This document shows positions 33,601 through 39,049 of a DNA stretch of 64,000 nt, in pieces. How positions within the stretch are numbered: position 1 is the first letter of the stretch; every line of letters starts with the position of its first letter. Both the position numbers and the translations under genes were made by a program. Below the pieces are notes generated by a model that saw nothing but the letters and a program-made list of their open reading frames with translations, did no database searches and was not told the origin of the DNA. Source of the DNA: Streptomyces iakyrus (GTDB lineage Bacteria > Actinomycetota > Actinomycetes > Streptomycetales > Streptomycetaceae); contig NZ_JNXI01000014.1 of the NCBI RefSeq assembly GCF_000717055.1, positions 248,001 to 312,000 on the forward strand, given 5' to 3'.

Positions 33601-33727
33601 GCAGACGGTCGTCGCAGAGCTACGCGCGTTGCTCGCCCCGGCCGACCGGTCACCCGGCGGCCTCGACGACACCCCGGCCGATCCGGCTACTTGGCGTCCG
33701 CGTAGCACTCCACCACCGCCGTCGTGA
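30644..33727 (+). CDS. AfsR/SARP-family transcriptional regulator with NB-ARC and TPR domains
   Basis: This 1027-residue regulator has the AfsR layout. Residues ~1-90 are an OmpR-like winged helix (MRFGLLGP, KSRVLLTALLLDAGRAVSVESL, HNHIARLRRLLDD). Residues ~95-250 are the bacterial transcriptional activation domain (LALWRGAPLAGL, LTGEYPLREAFYRQLMLALHRTGRQAEAL). The NB-ARC ATPase has P-loop GMAGVGKS at 307-314 and Walker B LLVLDDA. TPR repeats fill the C-terminus. A TD/AD simple repeat (32463-32520) separates NB-ARC from TPR. The ATG at 30644 is spaced seven bases from AAGGG; a GTG two codons upstream is an alternative. The target is not visible; no antibiotic cluster adjoins. The 3' end overlaps the convergent polymerase gene by 41 bases. 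Confidence 0.92.
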   Translation: MRFGLLGPPVLFYDAQGVARNTARAISGPKSRVLLTALLLDAGRAVSVESLKDALWGEAAPVSAQASLHNHIARLRRLLDDPERLRTVPSGYALRIDEGELDVHLFDAHVAEARAAHTGRDWERVVRVCTDALALWRGAPLAGLPPEVGGYAFAQRLCEARLLLLEWRGDAQLALGGPRLHELVPELAVLTGEYPLREAFYRQLMLALHRTGRQAEALAVHRDLRTRLVGQLGIEPGPGVREAHVEVLRGVTGGGGRGGPGEPDRPVPSPAQLPPAPTHFIGRTSLRESLRRALTAPGPHPTAVISGMAGVGKSALALHVAHQLAERFPDGQIHLDLHGVTPGMPPLTAAQAVNALLRDLGTEPCRIPEEPDSAAALLRSLLAPTRTLLVLDDAASAAQVRPLLPGGAGCGAIVTSRSPLTALDGAARFPLAPLSDEESAELLRRASGRDGLDGTDAARLLVELTGRLPLALRIVAARLAARLALTPDALAGQLAAADSRLHHLEYDDLSVRRSLAVAHDALAASERETDRDAARILCRIGALGLPTYGAPLLARLTGTGEPRTEAALERLLDVALLEESAYGRYAPHDLVRDFARERAGERETAHAETDTDAEADTDTDADTDTVGTALHWYAAVAERVLAAIVPSGLDLDDRRRPTPSQPSGHPAHVGAVAPFAGPGAAFAWGDRELENVVTLVERYADDPSGQRAGLVCTLVRLIFPYAHRRGRVAEMEVLGQAGLRVARRLGDAEAEAYALADLAGLHFLTGRHNDALALNDRALALWRRLDRSSWIRRCLNNRGLLLDGLGRRGEAGEALARSLQYARQLNDPYGEAVTRSHLGKLVEHTDPRAAIEEHRRTLALGDEIGAVIVRHSAHCNIGYAHLRLGRPAAALPHFEESLRILGGHGDWHGESQTRLGLVRALRLLGRSGRAARECAELLGRADARADRYTGGLARHQHGLLLQELGYIGAAREEWSSALAALEGTDEQTVVAELRALLAPADRSPGGLDDTPADPATWRPRSTPPPPS

Positions 33728-35432
33728 ACGGGAACCGCACGGGCGTCTCCCCGAAGGTCAGCCGTCCGGCCAGGGCCGCAGCCTCCCGGATCGCCGCCAC
33801 GACCGTCTCCGTCTCCTCCTCGGGGCAGTGCACGATCACCTCGTCGTGCTGGAAGAAGACCAGCTCGGCCGCCAGCCCCGCGCAGGCCTTGCGCAGCGCG
33901 GCGAGCAGCAGCAGTGCCCAGTCGGCGGCGCTGCCCTGGACGACGAAGTTGCGGGCGAAGCGGCCGCGGGCGCGGGCGTTCGTGGACGCGTAGCCGGGCA
34001 CCCACTGCCCGCCGTCCGGCTGGTCGTCCTCCCCGGAGCCGGAGCCGGAGCCGGAGCCCGAGCCGAAGCCGAAGCCGGTGCCGACGGCGGCCGTGGGGAT
34101 GCCGGCCTCCTCCGTCGCGTCGTCCGTGCCCCGGGCCGCGGGTGGGCAGGTCCGGCCGAGCCAGGTCCGCACGAGCCGGCCCTCCTCACCGGCCCGGGCC
34201 GCGTCGTCGACGTAGGCCACCGCCCTGGGGAAGCGGCGTCTGAGCGCGGCGAGGTTCTTCAGGCCGTCCCCGGAGGTCTGGCCGTAGACCGCTCCGAGCA
34301 CGGCGAGTTTGGCCTGGGAGCGGTCGCCGGAGAAGGCGCGGTCGGAGACGGACTGGTACAGGTCGGTCTCCCGGCCGGCCACCTCCATCAGGCCCGGGTC
34401 GCGGGAGATCGCGGCGAGGACGCGCGGCTCCATCTGGTCGGCGTCGGCGACGACGAGCCGCCAGCCGGGGTCGGCGACCACGGCCCGCCGGATCACCTTG
34501 GGGATCTGGAGCCCGCCTCCGCCGTTGGTCACCCAGCGCCCCGTGACCGTCCCGCCCGCGAGGAACTCGGGTCTGAACCGCCCCTCGCGCACCCAGTCCT
34601 GGAGCCAGGACCAGCCGTGGGCCACCCAGATGCGGTACAGCTTCTTGTACTCGATGAGGGGCTTCACGGCGGGGTGGTCGACGGTCTCGATCTCCCAGCG
34701 GCGGGTCGAGGAGATCTTGATTCCGGCCTGGGCGAAGGCCTTGACCACGTCGGCGGGCAGGTCGGGACGGACCCGGCGGCCGAACGCGGCGGACACCTCG
34801 TCGGCCAGCTCGGCCAGCCGGCGCGGCTCGCCGCCGCCCGCGTACCGCTCGCCCAGCAGGTCGTGCAGCACGGCGCGGTGCACCTCGGCGCTCCAGGGCA
34901 GCCCGGCGCGGTTCATCTCGGCGGCCACCAGCATGCCCGCCGACTCGGCGGCCGTCAGCAGCCGCATCCGGTCGGGGTGCTCGGCCCGCTCGTGCCGCCT
35001 GTGCTGCTCGGCGTAGACGGCGAGGAGGTCCGACAGGGGCAGGTGGACGCCCTGCGGCTCGAACAGCGAGGACTGCGAGCCCGGTTCGGCGGCGCGCTGC
35101 GGCGGATCGGGCGGTACGGGGCCGCCGCGCAGCCGGGCCAGGGCGGCCGCGGCCGAGCGGGGTTCCCCGTAGCGCCCCTCGTGGCCGAGGAGGAGGGTCT
35201 CGGCGGCCTCGATGTCGTAGCACCGCTCGGCTCGCACCCCCGCGGCGAGCAGGCGCGGGTACACCTCGGCGGTGGACCGCCACACCCACCGCGTGACGCC
35301 GGGCCGGCTCCGGACGGCCTCGGCGGCGTCCGCCTCCCGGCGCACCGGGCCGGAGGGCAGCCCGTCCGGACCGAGGGGGGCGACGTCCACGCCACCGTCC
35401 TCGGCCGGAGCGAGCGCCCACCGGTCGGCCAT
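33687..35432 (-). CDS. DNA polymerase I-like protein (3'-5' exonuclease/polymerase family)
   Basis: This 581-residue family A polymerase-like protein is shorter than PolA (no 5' nuclease). Motif A reads VVADADQMEPRVLA in place of DYSQIELR. The O-helix region is KLAVLGAVYGQTSGDGLKNL, and motif C is FQHDEVIVHCPEEE with the HDE catalytic triad. The N-terminal part has only traces of a degenerate exonuclease fold. A Gly/Ser run (GFGFGSGSGSGSGSG, 34030-34080) sits between the fingers and the final palm segment. Streptomyces carry this as a second, non-PolA polymerase; its role is probably repair. It overlaps the SARP gene tail. Confidence 0.88.
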   Translation of the reverse strand: MADRWALAPAEDGGVDVAPLGPDGLPSGPVRREADAAEAVRSRPGVTRWVWRSTAEVYPRLLAAGVRAERCYDIEAAETLLLGHEGRYGEPRSAAAALARLRGGPVPPDPPQRAAEPGSQSSLFEPQGVHLPLSDLLAVYAEQHRRHERAEHPDRMRLLTAAESAGMLVAAEMNRAGLPWSAEVHRAVLHDLLGERYAGGGEPRRLAELADEVSAAFGRRVRPDLPADVVKAFAQAGIKISSTRRWEIETVDHPAVKPLIEYKKLYRIWVAHGWSWLQDWVREGRFRPEFLAGGTVTGRWVTNGGGGLQIPKVIRRAVVADPGWRLVVADADQMEPRVLAAISRDPGLMEVAGRETDLYQSVSDRAFSGDRSQAKLAVLGAVYGQTSGDGLKNLAALRRRFPRAVAYVDDAARAGEEGRLVRTWLGRTCPPAARGTDDATEEAGIPTAAVGTGFGFGSGSGSGSGSGEDDQPDGGQWVPGYASTNARARGRFARNFVVQGSAADWALLLLAALRKACAGLAAELVFFQHDEVIVHCPEEETETVVAAIREAAALAGRLTFGETPVRFPFTTAVVECYADAK

Positions 35433-35485: not shown

Positions 35486-35550
35486 AAGCCCCCGTAAGCC
35501 CCCGTAAGGCCTCGTAGGGCCTGGTGAGGCCTCTTGAGGCGCGTCAGGCC
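35486..35550. repeat. Degenerate 10-bp periodic repeat
   Basis: About six to seven units with exact 10-base phasing: AAGCCCCCGT twice, AAGGCCTCGT, AGGGCCTGGT, GAGGCCTCTT and GAGGCGCGTC. It lies between the ClpC2-like gene and the polymerase gene, reaching into the last codons of the former. It may act as a terminator (several GCCTC/GAGGC pairings are possible). Confidence 0.65.
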
Positions 35551-36281
35551 TGGTCCGTCTCCTGCTGCGCCTGCATGATCTTCTCCAGCACCGCCCCGAC
35601 GTACTGCTCGGCCCGCTCCTTGTCGATGCCGAGGCCGCTGAGGACGCCCTCGCCGTTCTCGTGCTCCAGCAGGGCGAGCAGGATGTGCTCGGTGCCGATG
35701 TAGTTGTGGCCCAGGCGCAAGGCCTCGCGGAAGGTGAGCTCCAGGACCTTCTTGGCCGCCTGGCCGTACGGCACGAGCTCCGGGACCTCGTCGAGGGCGG
35801 GCGGAAGAGCCGCCGTCGCCGCCTCGCGGACCGCGTCGAGCGAGACGCCCTGCTTGATGATCGCCTTCGCGGCGAGGCCGTCCGGCTCGGCCAGCAGACC
35901 GAGGACGAGGTGCTCGGGCAGGCCCTCGGCGTTGCGGGCGGCCTTGGACGCGTTGTGCGCGGCCATCACCGTGTTGCGGGCGCGGGGCGTGTACCGGTTG
36001 AAGCCCTGGCTCGGGTCGAGGTCGTTCGACTCCTTCGGCACGAACCGCTTCTGCGCGGCCTGCCGGGTGACGCCCATGCTCTTGCCGATGTCCGTCCAGG
36101 AGGCGCCGGACCGCCGGGCCTGGTCGACGAAGTGGCCGATCAGGTGGTCGGCCACGTCGCCCAGGTGGTCCGCGGCGATCACCGCGTCCTGGAGCTGGTC
36201 CAGCGGCTCGGGGTGGACCTTCTTGATGGCCGCGATGAGGTCGTCGAGGCGGATGGATGACGTGGTGTCGGGGTTCGTCAT
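35544..36281 (-). CDS. ClpC2-like protein: DNA-binding N-terminus plus tandem Clp N-domain
   Basis: This 245-residue protein has no ATPase domain. Residues ~50-80 (SGASWTDIGKSMGVTRQAAQKRF) form a helix-turn-helix. From about residue 95, two Clp repeat-type N-domain halves follow (YTPRARNTVMAAHNASKAARN...LPEHLVLGLLAEPDGLA and FREALRLGHNYIGTEHILLALLEHENGEG). This fits mycobacterial ClpC2, which as I recall binds ClpC1-targeting cyclic peptides such as cyclomarin and represses its own promoter. Two palindromes start three bases from the initiation codon, consistent with autorepression. It is divergent from the DUF2786 gene. Confidence 0.88.
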   Translation of the reverse strand: MTNPDTTSSIRLDDLIAAIKKVHPEPLDQLQDAVIAADHLGDVADHLIGHFVDQARRSGASWTDIGKSMGVTRQAAQKRFVPKESNDLDPSQGFNRYTPRARNTVMAAHNASKAARNAEGLPEHLVLGLLAEPDGLAAKAIIKQGVSLDAVREAATAALPPALDEVPELVPYGQAAKKVLELTFREALRLGHNYIGTEHILLALLEHENGEGVLSGLGIDKERAEQYVGAVLEKIMQAQQETDQA

Positions 36282-36283
36282 GT

Positions 36284-36328
36284 GTCAACCGTAGGTTGCG
36301 CCCGGGTGGCTGTCAACCAGGGGTTGAC
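36284..36328. promoter_or_regulatory. Twin palindromic operator of the ClpC2-like gene
   Basis: Site 1 is GTCAACC-GTA-GGTTGCG (36284-36300, five to six matched pairs) and site 2 is GTCAACC-AGG-GGTTGAC (36312-36328, perfect 7-3-7). Centres are 28 bp apart. Both sit in the 84-base divergent gap between the ClpC2-like ATG and the DUF2786 GTG, so a bound regulator would control both genes. Confidence 0.85.
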
Positions 36329-36365: not shown

Positions 36366-37478
36366 GTGAGTACGTCCAGCACCGTCGATCGCGCGTTCGC
36401 ATCGGCCCTCTACGAGACCGGCGAGACGGCCCTGGACGCCGGCGCGTCCCTGCTCGCCTCCGACCCGGCGGCCGACGCCGAACTCGCCCGGCGTGGGTAC
36501 GAGTTCGTGGCCGGGGCGTGGCGGCGCGGCTGGCAGCCGGCCGATGTCGTGCGGATCGTGCGGCGCGAGCTGGACGACGTGCACGTGCTGCTGGCGGCCG
36601 CGCTGATCCGCGCCCAGGCCCCCGGCGACGGCCCCCGCGGCCGCCGCTGGAACGCCCAGCTCGCGAGGCTCCCCGACGACGTCGCGCCCCGCACCGACCG
36701 CTTCTCGCACGCCACCGCCGTGCTGGAGCTGTACCGCCTGCTGCTGCGGCTGCCGGCGCTGGAGGACCTCGACGAGGCGCCCGGGCAGGCGGCCGGAGGG
36801 GCGGTGACCGAGTCCCGCATGCTCACCCGTATCCGCGCGCTGCTCGCCAAGGCGGAGGCCACCGGGTTCCCGGAGGAGGCCGAGGCGCTCAGCGCCAAGG
36901 CGCAGGAGCTGATGGCCCGGCACAGTGTCGACGAGGCGCTGCTCGCGGCGCGGGCGCCGTCGCCGGACACGCCCGGGGCCTGCCGGATCGGGGTCGAACC
37001 GCCGTACGAGCAGGCCAAGGCGGTGCTGCTGGACGCCGTCGCCGGCGCCAACCACTGCCGGGCGGTCTGGAACGAGCCCCTCGGCTTCTCCACCGTCGTC
37101 GGCTTCGAAACCGACCTGGAGGCGGTCGAACTCCTCTACACCTCGCTCCTCGTGCAGGCCACGACCGCGATGACCAAGGCGGAGGCGAGACAGCGGGCGG
37201 GCGGGCGCAAGCGCACCAAGACGTTCCGGCAGTCCTTCCTCGCGGCCTACGCCCACCGCATCGGCACCCGGCTGGCCGCGGCGGCCGAGACCCAGGTGAC
37301 CGACGACCTGCTCCCGGTCCTCGCCTCCCGCGAGGTCGCCGTGACCGGGCGGCTGGACCGGATGTTCCCGGAGACCACCACGACCCGGCTGCGCGGGGTG
37401 CGCGACGCGGCGGGCTGGACGGAGGGCGCACAGGCGGCGGACCGTGCCCAGGTCAGGCACCGGCCGCCGTTGCGCTGA
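36366..37478 (+). CDS. DUF2786 domain protein
   Basis: This 370-residue soluble protein has the DUF2786 signature MLTRIRALLAKAEATGFPEEAEALSAKAQELMARHSVDEALL at about residues 155-196, a zinc-free helical motif found in many actinobacterial proteins of unknown role. The C-terminal part carries FRQSFLAAYAHRIGTRL, as in other family members. The GTG start (STSSTVDRAF) is preceded by only a weak purine stretch. The gene is divergent from the ClpC2-like gene and shares its operator region, so it may be part of the same response. Its function is unknown. Confidence 0.78.
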   Translation: MSTSSTVDRAFASALYETGETALDAGASLLASDPAADAELARRGYEFVAGAWRRGWQPADVVRIVRRELDDVHVLLAAALIRAQAPGDGPRGRRWNAQLARLPDDVAPRTDRFSHATAVLELYRLLLRLPALEDLDEAPGQAAGGAVTESRMLTRIRALLAKAEATGFPEEAEALSAKAQELMARHSVDEALLAARAPSPDTPGACRIGVEPPYEQAKAVLLDAVAGANHCRAVWNEPLGFSTVVGFETDLEAVELLYTSLLVQATTAMTKAEARQRAGGRKRTKTFRQSFLAAYAHRIGTRLAAAAETQVTDDLLPVLASREVAVTGRLDRMFPETTTTRLRGVRDAAGWTEGAQAADRAQVRHRPPLR

Positions 37479-38028: not shown

Positions 38029-39049
38029 GGGGTCCTCTGGGCGTGTCGTACGGAAGCGGCTTCGGGCCCCTGGATCATCACGCACCCGGGTCCCGCAGGG
38101 GCACGCACCCCCTGCGATTCCCCCGAACGCCGGACGCCCACACGCCCTCACGCAGGGCTTGACCGCTTCTCCCCGCAAGCCCTCACCGAACCTCGGCACG
38201 CCGCCCCTCGGCGCTGCCCGGGGGCCGCGCGGTCGGGCGCGAGCCCTGGTTGCTGGTTGGCGGACATCCGTTGCGATGCCCGGGCCTGCCCAGCCGGGCG
38301 CGGGCCTTGGTTGCTGGTTGGGCGGACATCCGTTGTGATGCCCGGGGCTGCCGGTCGGGCGCAGGCGGTGGCTGCCTCTCCGGCGGACGCTGGTTTCGAT
38401 GCCCGGCGCCTGCCCGGCCGGGCGGGGGCCTTGGTTGCTGGTTGGACGGACGCCCTTGCGATGCCCGGGGCTGCCGGTCGGGCGCAGGCGGTGGCTGCCT
38501 CTCCGGCGGACGCTGGTTTCGATGCCCGGCGCCTGCCCGGCCGGGCGCGGGCCTTGGTTGCTGCTTGGACGGACGCCCTTGCGATGCCCGGGCCTGCCGG
38601 CCGGGCGCGGGCCTTGGTTGCTGCTTGGACGGACGCCCTTGCGATGCCCGGGCCCGGCCGGCCAGGTCCATCCGGCCCGTGGCCCCGGGCTCGTCGCCTT
38701 GCTGCAGGCCAGCAGAACCCACGCCGAACCGGTGCGCCCGGGGGCACCGCCCGGCGGCCGCCGCCCCGCGAGAGGCCCGCCGGCGCGGACGCCCGCGGCA
38801 TTTTCCTGCCCGGTGCGGGGCGGCTGGGCAAAAACCGGCCCGGACACCCGGCCGGCCGGTCCGGCGGGAGGGGGCCCGGGCCGCTTCTCCGGCAGACGCC
38901 CGTTGCGATTCCCCGAACCCCGCCGGGGGATTGCACGGCCGGTGCCTCTGGCCACGCCCCGCTGGCCTCCGGATCCAGCCACCACCCCGAACGCCGGACG
39001 GGCCACGGCCCCGCAGGGGATCCGTGACCCGTCCGTGCGGATGCCGGTG
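38029..39049. other. 1.0-kb gene-free spacer with tandem repeats
   Basis: No start codon with a ribosome-binding site and no protein family is recognisable. Several frames are open on both strands, as expected for very GC-rich repeats. Its centre is a tandem array (listed next). Diverged fragments of the same unit seem to recur near 38890-38930 (CTCCGGCAGACGCCCGTTGCGATTCCC resembles the array's CTCCGGCGGACGCTGGTTTCGATGCCC, given here only as a comparison of positions 38895-38921 with 38378-38404). Confidence 0.6.
38231..38670. repeat. Tandem array of ~61-bp units in two alternating types
   Basis: Units begin with GATGCCC at 38275, 38337, 38398, 38460, 38521, 38583 and 38643, after a partial first copy at 38231. 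Lengths are 62, 61, 62, 61, 62 and 60. Type A carries GCGGGCCTTGGTTGCTG; type B carries GCAGGCGGTGGCTGCCTC. The order is A, A, B, A, B, A, A, so a 123-bp B-A pair (38337-38459) is duplicated at 38460-38582. Type A units often contain a GCCCGGCCGGGC palindrome. Confidence 0.92.

Follow-up and report, generated by a model that had tools for sequence, protein, structure and literature searches.

The window, a 64,000-nucleotide stretch of the Streptomyces iakyrus genome (contig NZ_JNXI01000014.1, positions 248,001 to 312,000), carries on its minus strand a gene whose product has the layout of ClpC2 (coordinates are those of the window):

35544..36281, minus strand: clpC2, an open reading frame of 245 amino acids with an ATG start, stop codon included; it matches Clp_N and its closest solved chains are ClpC2 proteins.
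36030..36281, minus strand: N-terminal domain (residues 1-84), matched over residues 6-71 by the N-domain of Mycobacterium tuberculosis ClpC2 (8ADA).
36042..36107, minus strand: helix-turn-helix (HTH) segment (residues 59-80), with a proposed recognition helix at 73-80, drawn from the AlphaFold2 model and sequence conservation.
35586..36002, minus strand: C-terminal ClpC1-NTD-like domain (residues 94-232, including F94, Y172, E181, R185 and R189), from Pfam, PDB sequence matches and alignment.

Pfam detects Clp_N (PF02861, 1.4e-24) in two stretches of the product and no ATPase domain in its 245 residues, which places it outside the AAA+ proteins of the ClpC/ClpA kind; the NCBIfam ClpA and ClpB models touch only its N-domain part, far under their cut-off. 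In a PDB sequence search the C-terminal domain is best matched by the ClpC2 chains 9p2p (7.4e-72, query residues 84-237), 8b9o and 8ad9, and the N-terminal domain by 8ada over residues 6-71 (1.9e-28 and 4.6e-30). The protein combines the N-terminal helical domain of ClpC2 type, recognised by the 8ada match, with a ClpC1-NTD-like domain that stands without an ATPase. An AlphaFold2 model built from 41 aligned sequences (mean pLDDT 90.6, pTM 0.66) has helices at residues 12-22, 26-57, 62-69 and 73-80, followed by the Clp_N helices, with a poorly predicted link at residues 85-88; in the model, helices 26-57, 62-69 and 73-80 form an HTH-like arrangement. No HTH family exceeded the Pfam cut-off in the product, the best being Myb_DNA-bind_8 (E 0.23, residues 62-80). 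Foldseek searches with the model ranked 8b9o and 8ad9 at the top, and 9p2p, 9p39 and 9p4h were absent among the best 50 matches listed (library up to 8 April 2026). The closest named proteins, at 97-98% identity, come from Streptomyces collinus, S. iakyrus and S. qaidamensis, and a full-length clpC1 lies about 55 kb from clpC2. Judged by sequence, the product is a ClpC2 orthologue. The first-pass annotation had described an HTH joined to tandem Clp N-domains without an ATPase; Pfam, the PDB matches and the model bear out this layout as that of the ClpC2 family, and the two Clp_N stretches exist, but they are merely the repeats of an ordinary two-repeat ClpC1-type N-domain.

Two palindromes precede the start codon, and neither has a strand of its own:

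36284..36300: proximal operator GTCAACCGTAGGTTGCG, a palindrome with its outer two bases mismatched, 2 nt from the ATG.
36312..36328: distal operator GTCAACCAGGGGTTGAC, a perfect palindrome.

The two sites are 28 bp apart, in register, and follow the GTCAAC-n5-GTTGAC pattern of ClpC2 operators, the proximal copy with two outer mismatches; their earlier placement three bases from the ATG is right if one counts to the A of the ATG, 2 nt lying between. The published mycobacterial operator is CGTCAAC-n5-GTTGACG, which sits 1-2 nt ahead of the ORF and is, in many cases, present twice and superimposed on the -35 and -10 boxes (PMC10030653). By sequence comparison, the operator of S. iakyrus clpC2 is this same element.

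The 9.13-Mb genome of S. iakyrus contains a single copy of the perfect palindrome, at clpC2, and a single copy with one mismatch, elsewhere. The latter (L002) has no twin and is flanked by a kinase-like frame and the end of a permease-like one; by arithmetic it is at about chance frequency, and it was dropped as a second operator. Another operator-like site (L004) has two mismatches. Single sites with up to three mismatches number 411, versus 281 for a reversed control pattern, and being so common, a loose single site means nothing. A relaxed twin pattern matched the genome once. The same pattern was found in 73 of 150 Streptomyces genomes, one match in each, while the control pattern gave none across all 150, and all 73 matches lie at clpC2 (listed places compared by eye with orthologue coordinates). 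In Streptomyces, the twin site is confined to clpC2. A chance palindrome is ruled out by its uniqueness in its own genome, by the 73 genomes set against no control match, and by its presence in 118 of the 118 orthologue loci scanned.

Orthologues of clpC2 (E <= 3.4e-90) are present in 122 of the 150 Streptomyces genomes by tabulated count, two of them incomplete; in three others the gene runs over two frames (G010), is truncated where the contig ends (G139) or is represented by a member of a divergent class only (G064). The gene is dispensable, since 25 of the 150 genomes are devoid of it. The 118 loci comprised 107 of the 122 Streptomyces orthologues and 11 from outside the genus, and both palindromes stand in every one, 27-30 bp apart and each with at most two mismatches, which upholds the earlier expectation that they accompany close orthologues. 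A stricter twin pattern matched 85 of 394 genomes of the class. Records naming an organism or MAG supplied 80 loci; an N-domain match is present in 62 (absent in 18), and 61 of these 62 carry the twin site, the exception being Catenulispora (L331). In a wider set of 257 distinct N-domain relatives from the fetched loci, with duplicates excluded and a few fragments included, the twin site accompanies 225 and is absent from 32 at the threshold used; in two of five twin-less relatives inspected (L218 and L331) a variant occurs whose half-sites are separated by one additional base. The 32 rule out the HTH motif alone as a predictor of the operator. Viral carriage was likewise rejected, as none of the 44 pattern matches in viral contigs is a relative.

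Six of the 150 Streptomyces genomes (G064, G122, G024, G068, G011 and G081) harbour a divergent ClpC2 class (L122-L127) of 233-234 aa and 36-38% identity. Its members are nearly the same in sequence and all have a twin operator, yet their neighbourhoods are unrelated; the class looks like a gene spread by transfer. The six 20-kb neighbourhoods, with families assigned by a rough purpose-made gene finder, have no common neighbour family except one found in two, and lend no support to a self-resistance gene of a gene cluster. The clpC2 frame is interrupted and the operators are retained in L141 (G010) and in L203 (G756), which has three operators; these frames reflect decay or sequencing error.

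The operators look like the promoter itself, within which two boxes may be placed:

36311..36316, minus strand: putative -35 TTGACA, part of the distal operator (its right arm, read in the clpC2 direction).
36288..36293, minus strand: putative -10 TACGGT, which lies within the proximal operator at a spacing of 17 nt from the -35; the transcript is predicted to be leaderless, starting at the ATG.

TTGAC ends the distal site of all 225 operator-bearing proteins, and TANNNT recurs at an invariant position within the proximal site of 220 of them, against 4 for the distal site. The spacer between the two boxes is 17 in 148 cases and 18 in 52 (24 were not matched), the start codon follows the proximal site by 2 nt in 170 and by 3 nt in 49, and it is ATG in 221. 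A generic promoter scan returned no promoter at clpC2, where TACGGT fits TANNNT only. This fixed geometry would widen the proposal of Taylor 2023 that the operators lie over the -35 and -10 boxes of a leaderless transcript.

On the other side of the operators a second gene is transcribed divergently:

36366..37478, plus strand: DUF2786/DUF7168 gene (Pfam), with a GTG start inferred from relatives; a divergent neighbour of clpC2, whose membership of the circuit is not supported.

Between the end of the distal operator and the inferred GTG lie 37 nt, and a divergent DUF2786 gene is kept at 48 of the 118 loci, all of them in Streptomyces; on these grounds the operators could be regarded as a shared bidirectional switch that serves mainly the clpC2-DUF2786 pair. 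We consider this very unlikely: at 70 of the 118 loci the operator occurs without DUF2786 in the stretch examined, the distance from the operator to the first aligned DUF2786 residue varies from 7 to about 1100 bp, and in many loci a CACGAT/TACGAT-like box resembling a -10 precedes the DUF2786 GTG whatever that distance, moving along with the start (by eye). The DUF2786 gene, earlier named a candidate co-regulated partner, loses that standing on the same three counts. Its repression in this particular strain is possible, because the operator is this close (37 nt) to the inferred GTG, but is not conserved. In eight loci (L010, L011, L012, L023, L037, L068, L069 and L077) the gap between clpC2 and DUF2786 contains a second palindrome of the GTCCACA-N3-TGTGGAC type, 82-154 bp upstream of clpC2, which we take to be reminiscent of DnaA boxes. 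A tandem array (38222-38663; unit of about 61 bp, 7.2 copies, 123-bp higher order) lies beside the DUF2786 region, and 8.5 copies of the hexamer CCGGAG (34033-34083) encode a Gly/Ser-rich stretch of a DNA polymerase A-like protein (gene at 33687-35432).

Which part of ClpC2 reads the operator can be approached by comparing the proteins that bear it. In Taylor 2023 (PMC10030653) DNA binding is assigned to the C-terminal domain, namely to a helix with R185 and R189; the R185A/R189A exchange weakens DNA binding in vitro and causes about twofold derepression in vivo. Both arginines are kept in 203 of the 225 operator-bearing proteins, as would be expected if this helix were the sequence-specific reader and the N-domain only dimerised. 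Among the 22 without the pair, however, L139, L141 and L203 are fragmentary or have an interrupted frame, R189 is replaced by Lys in two, and five (L054, L204, L205, L206 and L330) have both arginines replaced and the operator retained. Furthermore, five proteins of 81-96 aa (L210, L381/L422, L423, L424 and L398/L425) consist of the HTH region without Clp_N, and a twin operator lies 2 nt before the start of each; four of them belong to one genus (G849, G855, G821 and G833). The fifth, L210 (81 aa; operator spacing 26, one mismatch), has no C-terminal domain, and the R shown there is an alignment artefact. The N-domain of ClpC1 keeps the first of the arginines, yet ClpC1 displays little operator specificity (Taylor 2023, PMC10030653), and the N-domain crystal of the same study, obtained after proteolysis, spans residues 4-72, so that the solved domain stops before helix 73-80 of our model. 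Residues G59, W62, I65, G66, G70, Q74, A75, A76, Q77 and R79 are each kept in at least 220 of the 225 proteins. Because the five HTH-only and the five doubly substituted proteins keep the operator, we propose that the N-terminal HTH, rather than the C-terminal Arg pair, is probably the source of specificity; many of the 32 twin-less N-domain relatives have a similar HTH, which counts against it. Reading by the R185/R189 helix is quite unlikely. The C-terminal arginines would assist, perhaps through general contact with DNA, and would link ligand uptake to release. L204, L205 and L206, which occur in one family, are short ClpC2-like proteins (186-199 aa) with reduced Clp_N and a twin operator.

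Outside Streptomyces, twin sites extend beyond clpC2. The genus of genome G377 is probably Nocardia, a Nocardia protein being nearest to 41 of its 47 ClpC2 proteins (duplicates included; at most 27 named proteins compared). A strict twin site is found in 67 of its 69 genomes, 21 of which have two or three. According to the loci read, the site adjoins an FAD-dependent monooxygenase in 15 genomes (G198, G377, G867, G817, G862, G830, G849, G839, G807, G856, G835, G832, G818, G833 and G855), with an interrupted frame in G830. The best solved matches of this enzyme are tetracycline destructases, and it scores 124.8 of the 550 bits at which the NCBI tetracycline destructase family is cut off, far below. 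Elsewhere in the genus the twin site adjoins a methyltransferase (G839, G837 and G806, with a fragmentary match in G858) or an EXLDI protein (TIGR04342; G772, and by eye a similar case in G814), and in several loci a PEP-utilising protein lies across the site from its neighbour. A methyltransferase homologue in a genome from another family (G497) also starts 2 nt from a twin site. The methyltransferase was rejected as a conserved regulon member, its association with the site being sporadic: 18 of 148 genomes of the class sample yielded 22 matches, and the twin site accompanies only the query's own copy (21 without), besides the three in the Nocardia-like genus. In G589 (L143, 1500-1545) a small protein of 81 aa, with the look of a membrane protein, is preceded at 2 nt by a twin operator.

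The monooxygenase of G849 and G855 has an HTH-only gene opposite it, on the far side of the operator; in other monooxygenase loci only remnants of such a gene are left (by eye), with the operator retained. This persistence beside the remnants suggests that ClpC2 itself may read the monooxygenase operators there. The ClpC2 N-domain could be a portable repressor module, its HTH recognising a twin operator that is also a leaderless promoter; it would be fused to a drug-trapping or a degenerate Clp_N or occur alone, with additional targets in the Nocardia-like genus (monooxygenases with PEP-utilising proteins, methyltransferases, the EXLDI protein); to us this reading appears evenly poised between right and wrong. 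If true, ClpC2 in that genus would serve a small detoxification regulon as its sensor, besides being a self-repressing sponge.

The ligand pocket is conserved in S. iakyrus. The residues that form the cyclomarin pocket of M. tuberculosis ClpC2, Q94, F96, F172 and E181 (Taylor 2023, PMC10030653), correspond in alignments to Q92, F94, Y172 and E181, of which Y172 is a conservative change common to 114 of the 225 operator-bearing proteins; the equivalent change in ClpC1, F80Y, has been crystallised with cyclomarin A (3wde). For mycobacterial ClpC2, self-repression, operator binding, release by cyclomarin and protection as a sponge have been reported (PMC10030653), and the derepression by cyclomarin is large (PMC10030653; review). 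The earlier statement that ClpC1-directed cyclic peptides release ClpC2 from its own promoter holds for mycobacteria and cyclomarin, with a qualification: in M. tuberculosis cyclomarin raises ClpC2, and ecumicin and ilamycin do not, although all three compounds bind (PMC12913811).

Family membership, operator and promoter geometry, their conservation and, in Streptomyces, the restriction of the twin site to clpC2 are established here. For this strain we infer the binding, release and ligand steps, together with reading by the HTH. Ligand-free ClpC2 dimers would occupy both palindromes, which would also be the leaderless promoter, and keep transcription off, the N-terminal HTH recognising the sequence. 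The ClpC1-like pocket of the C-terminal domain would bind a peptide of the cyclomarin type or, under stress, perhaps an unfolded client; loaded ClpC2 would leave the operator and be made in quantity, and the abundant protein would titrate the ligand away from ClpC1. We regard this self-repressing drug sponge, with its operator-promoter and HTH reader, as the likely explanation of Streptomyces clpC2 as a whole. The drug need not be the natural signal, because heat also induces mycobacterial clpC2, for which a holdase role has been discussed (PMC10030653). On that ground, the natural role of ClpC2 might instead be proteostatic, as a stress-induced holdase or a competitor for ClpC1 clients or adaptors, drug capture being a side effect of the shared pocket; the wide occurrence of clpC2 in 122 of 150 Streptomyces genomes, some of them without known exposure to such peptides, would agree with it. 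The large cyclomarin derepression in mycobacteria argues against this alternative, and the absence of the gene from 25 genomes fits an optional defence better than core proteostasis, so that we hold it to be rather unlikely. Returning to the drug sponge, ClpC1 is a target of actinobacterial peptide natural products. Should the antibiotic-producing genus have the same sense-and-sponge circuit, this bears on how such peptides are tolerated, and a ClpC2-promoter reporter in a harmless Streptomyces could screen for ClpC1 ligands. The comparison makes testable which part of ClpC2 reads DNA; it points to the proposed recognition helix, which follows directly on the stretch covered by the solved N-domain. 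Operators at other genes point to candidate ClpC2-controlled genes beyond clpC2.

The circuit and its operator are already known from mycobacteria (Taylor 2023, PMC10030653). New here are the twin-site conservation, the promoter geometry, the candidate HTH reader and the extra twin-site genes of one genus; Streptomyces lies outside the operator alignment of Taylor 2023. A literature search, most subscription papers aside, retrieved no description of an ATPase-less Streptomyces ClpC2 or of ClpC2 targets beyond clpC2. The name "ClpC2" in the ADEP papers on S. hawaiiensis refers to a Clp-ATPase partner of ClpP1P2, and with it our protein has only the name in common, a naming clash. The HTH region of the antitoxin RelI (Rv2664) resembles ClpC2 residues 22-84 (9sdc, 9e-06), a similarity already in print (PMC13284704). 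RelI is paired with the RelS toxin, and its authors found no cis-element upstream (PMC13284704); it is devoid of Clp_N, whereas the clpC2 product, with 245 aa and Clp_N, is not of RelI type. The N-terminal domain of ClpC1 has the same fold and drug pocket as ClpC2, but is part of an ATPase and has no HTH, and the 3.2 kb around the clpC1 gene of S. iakyrus contain no operator with up to two mismatches. The closest solved relatives are 9p2p, 9p39 and 9p4h, deposited as "ATP-dependent Clp protease ATP-binding subunit ClpC2" (residues 84-237, 7.4e-72). Mycobacterial ClpC2 (Rv2667 and its M. smegmatis orthologue; 8ADA, 8AD9, 8B9O; Taylor 2023) agrees with the S. iakyrus protein in layout, in N- and C-domain sequence, in the sequence and place of the operator, in promoter overlap and in the leaderless start, which is predicted here; it differs by F172 in place of Y172, and in the view taken of the reader, which in Taylor 2023 is the C-terminal Arg pair and in our proposal the HTH.
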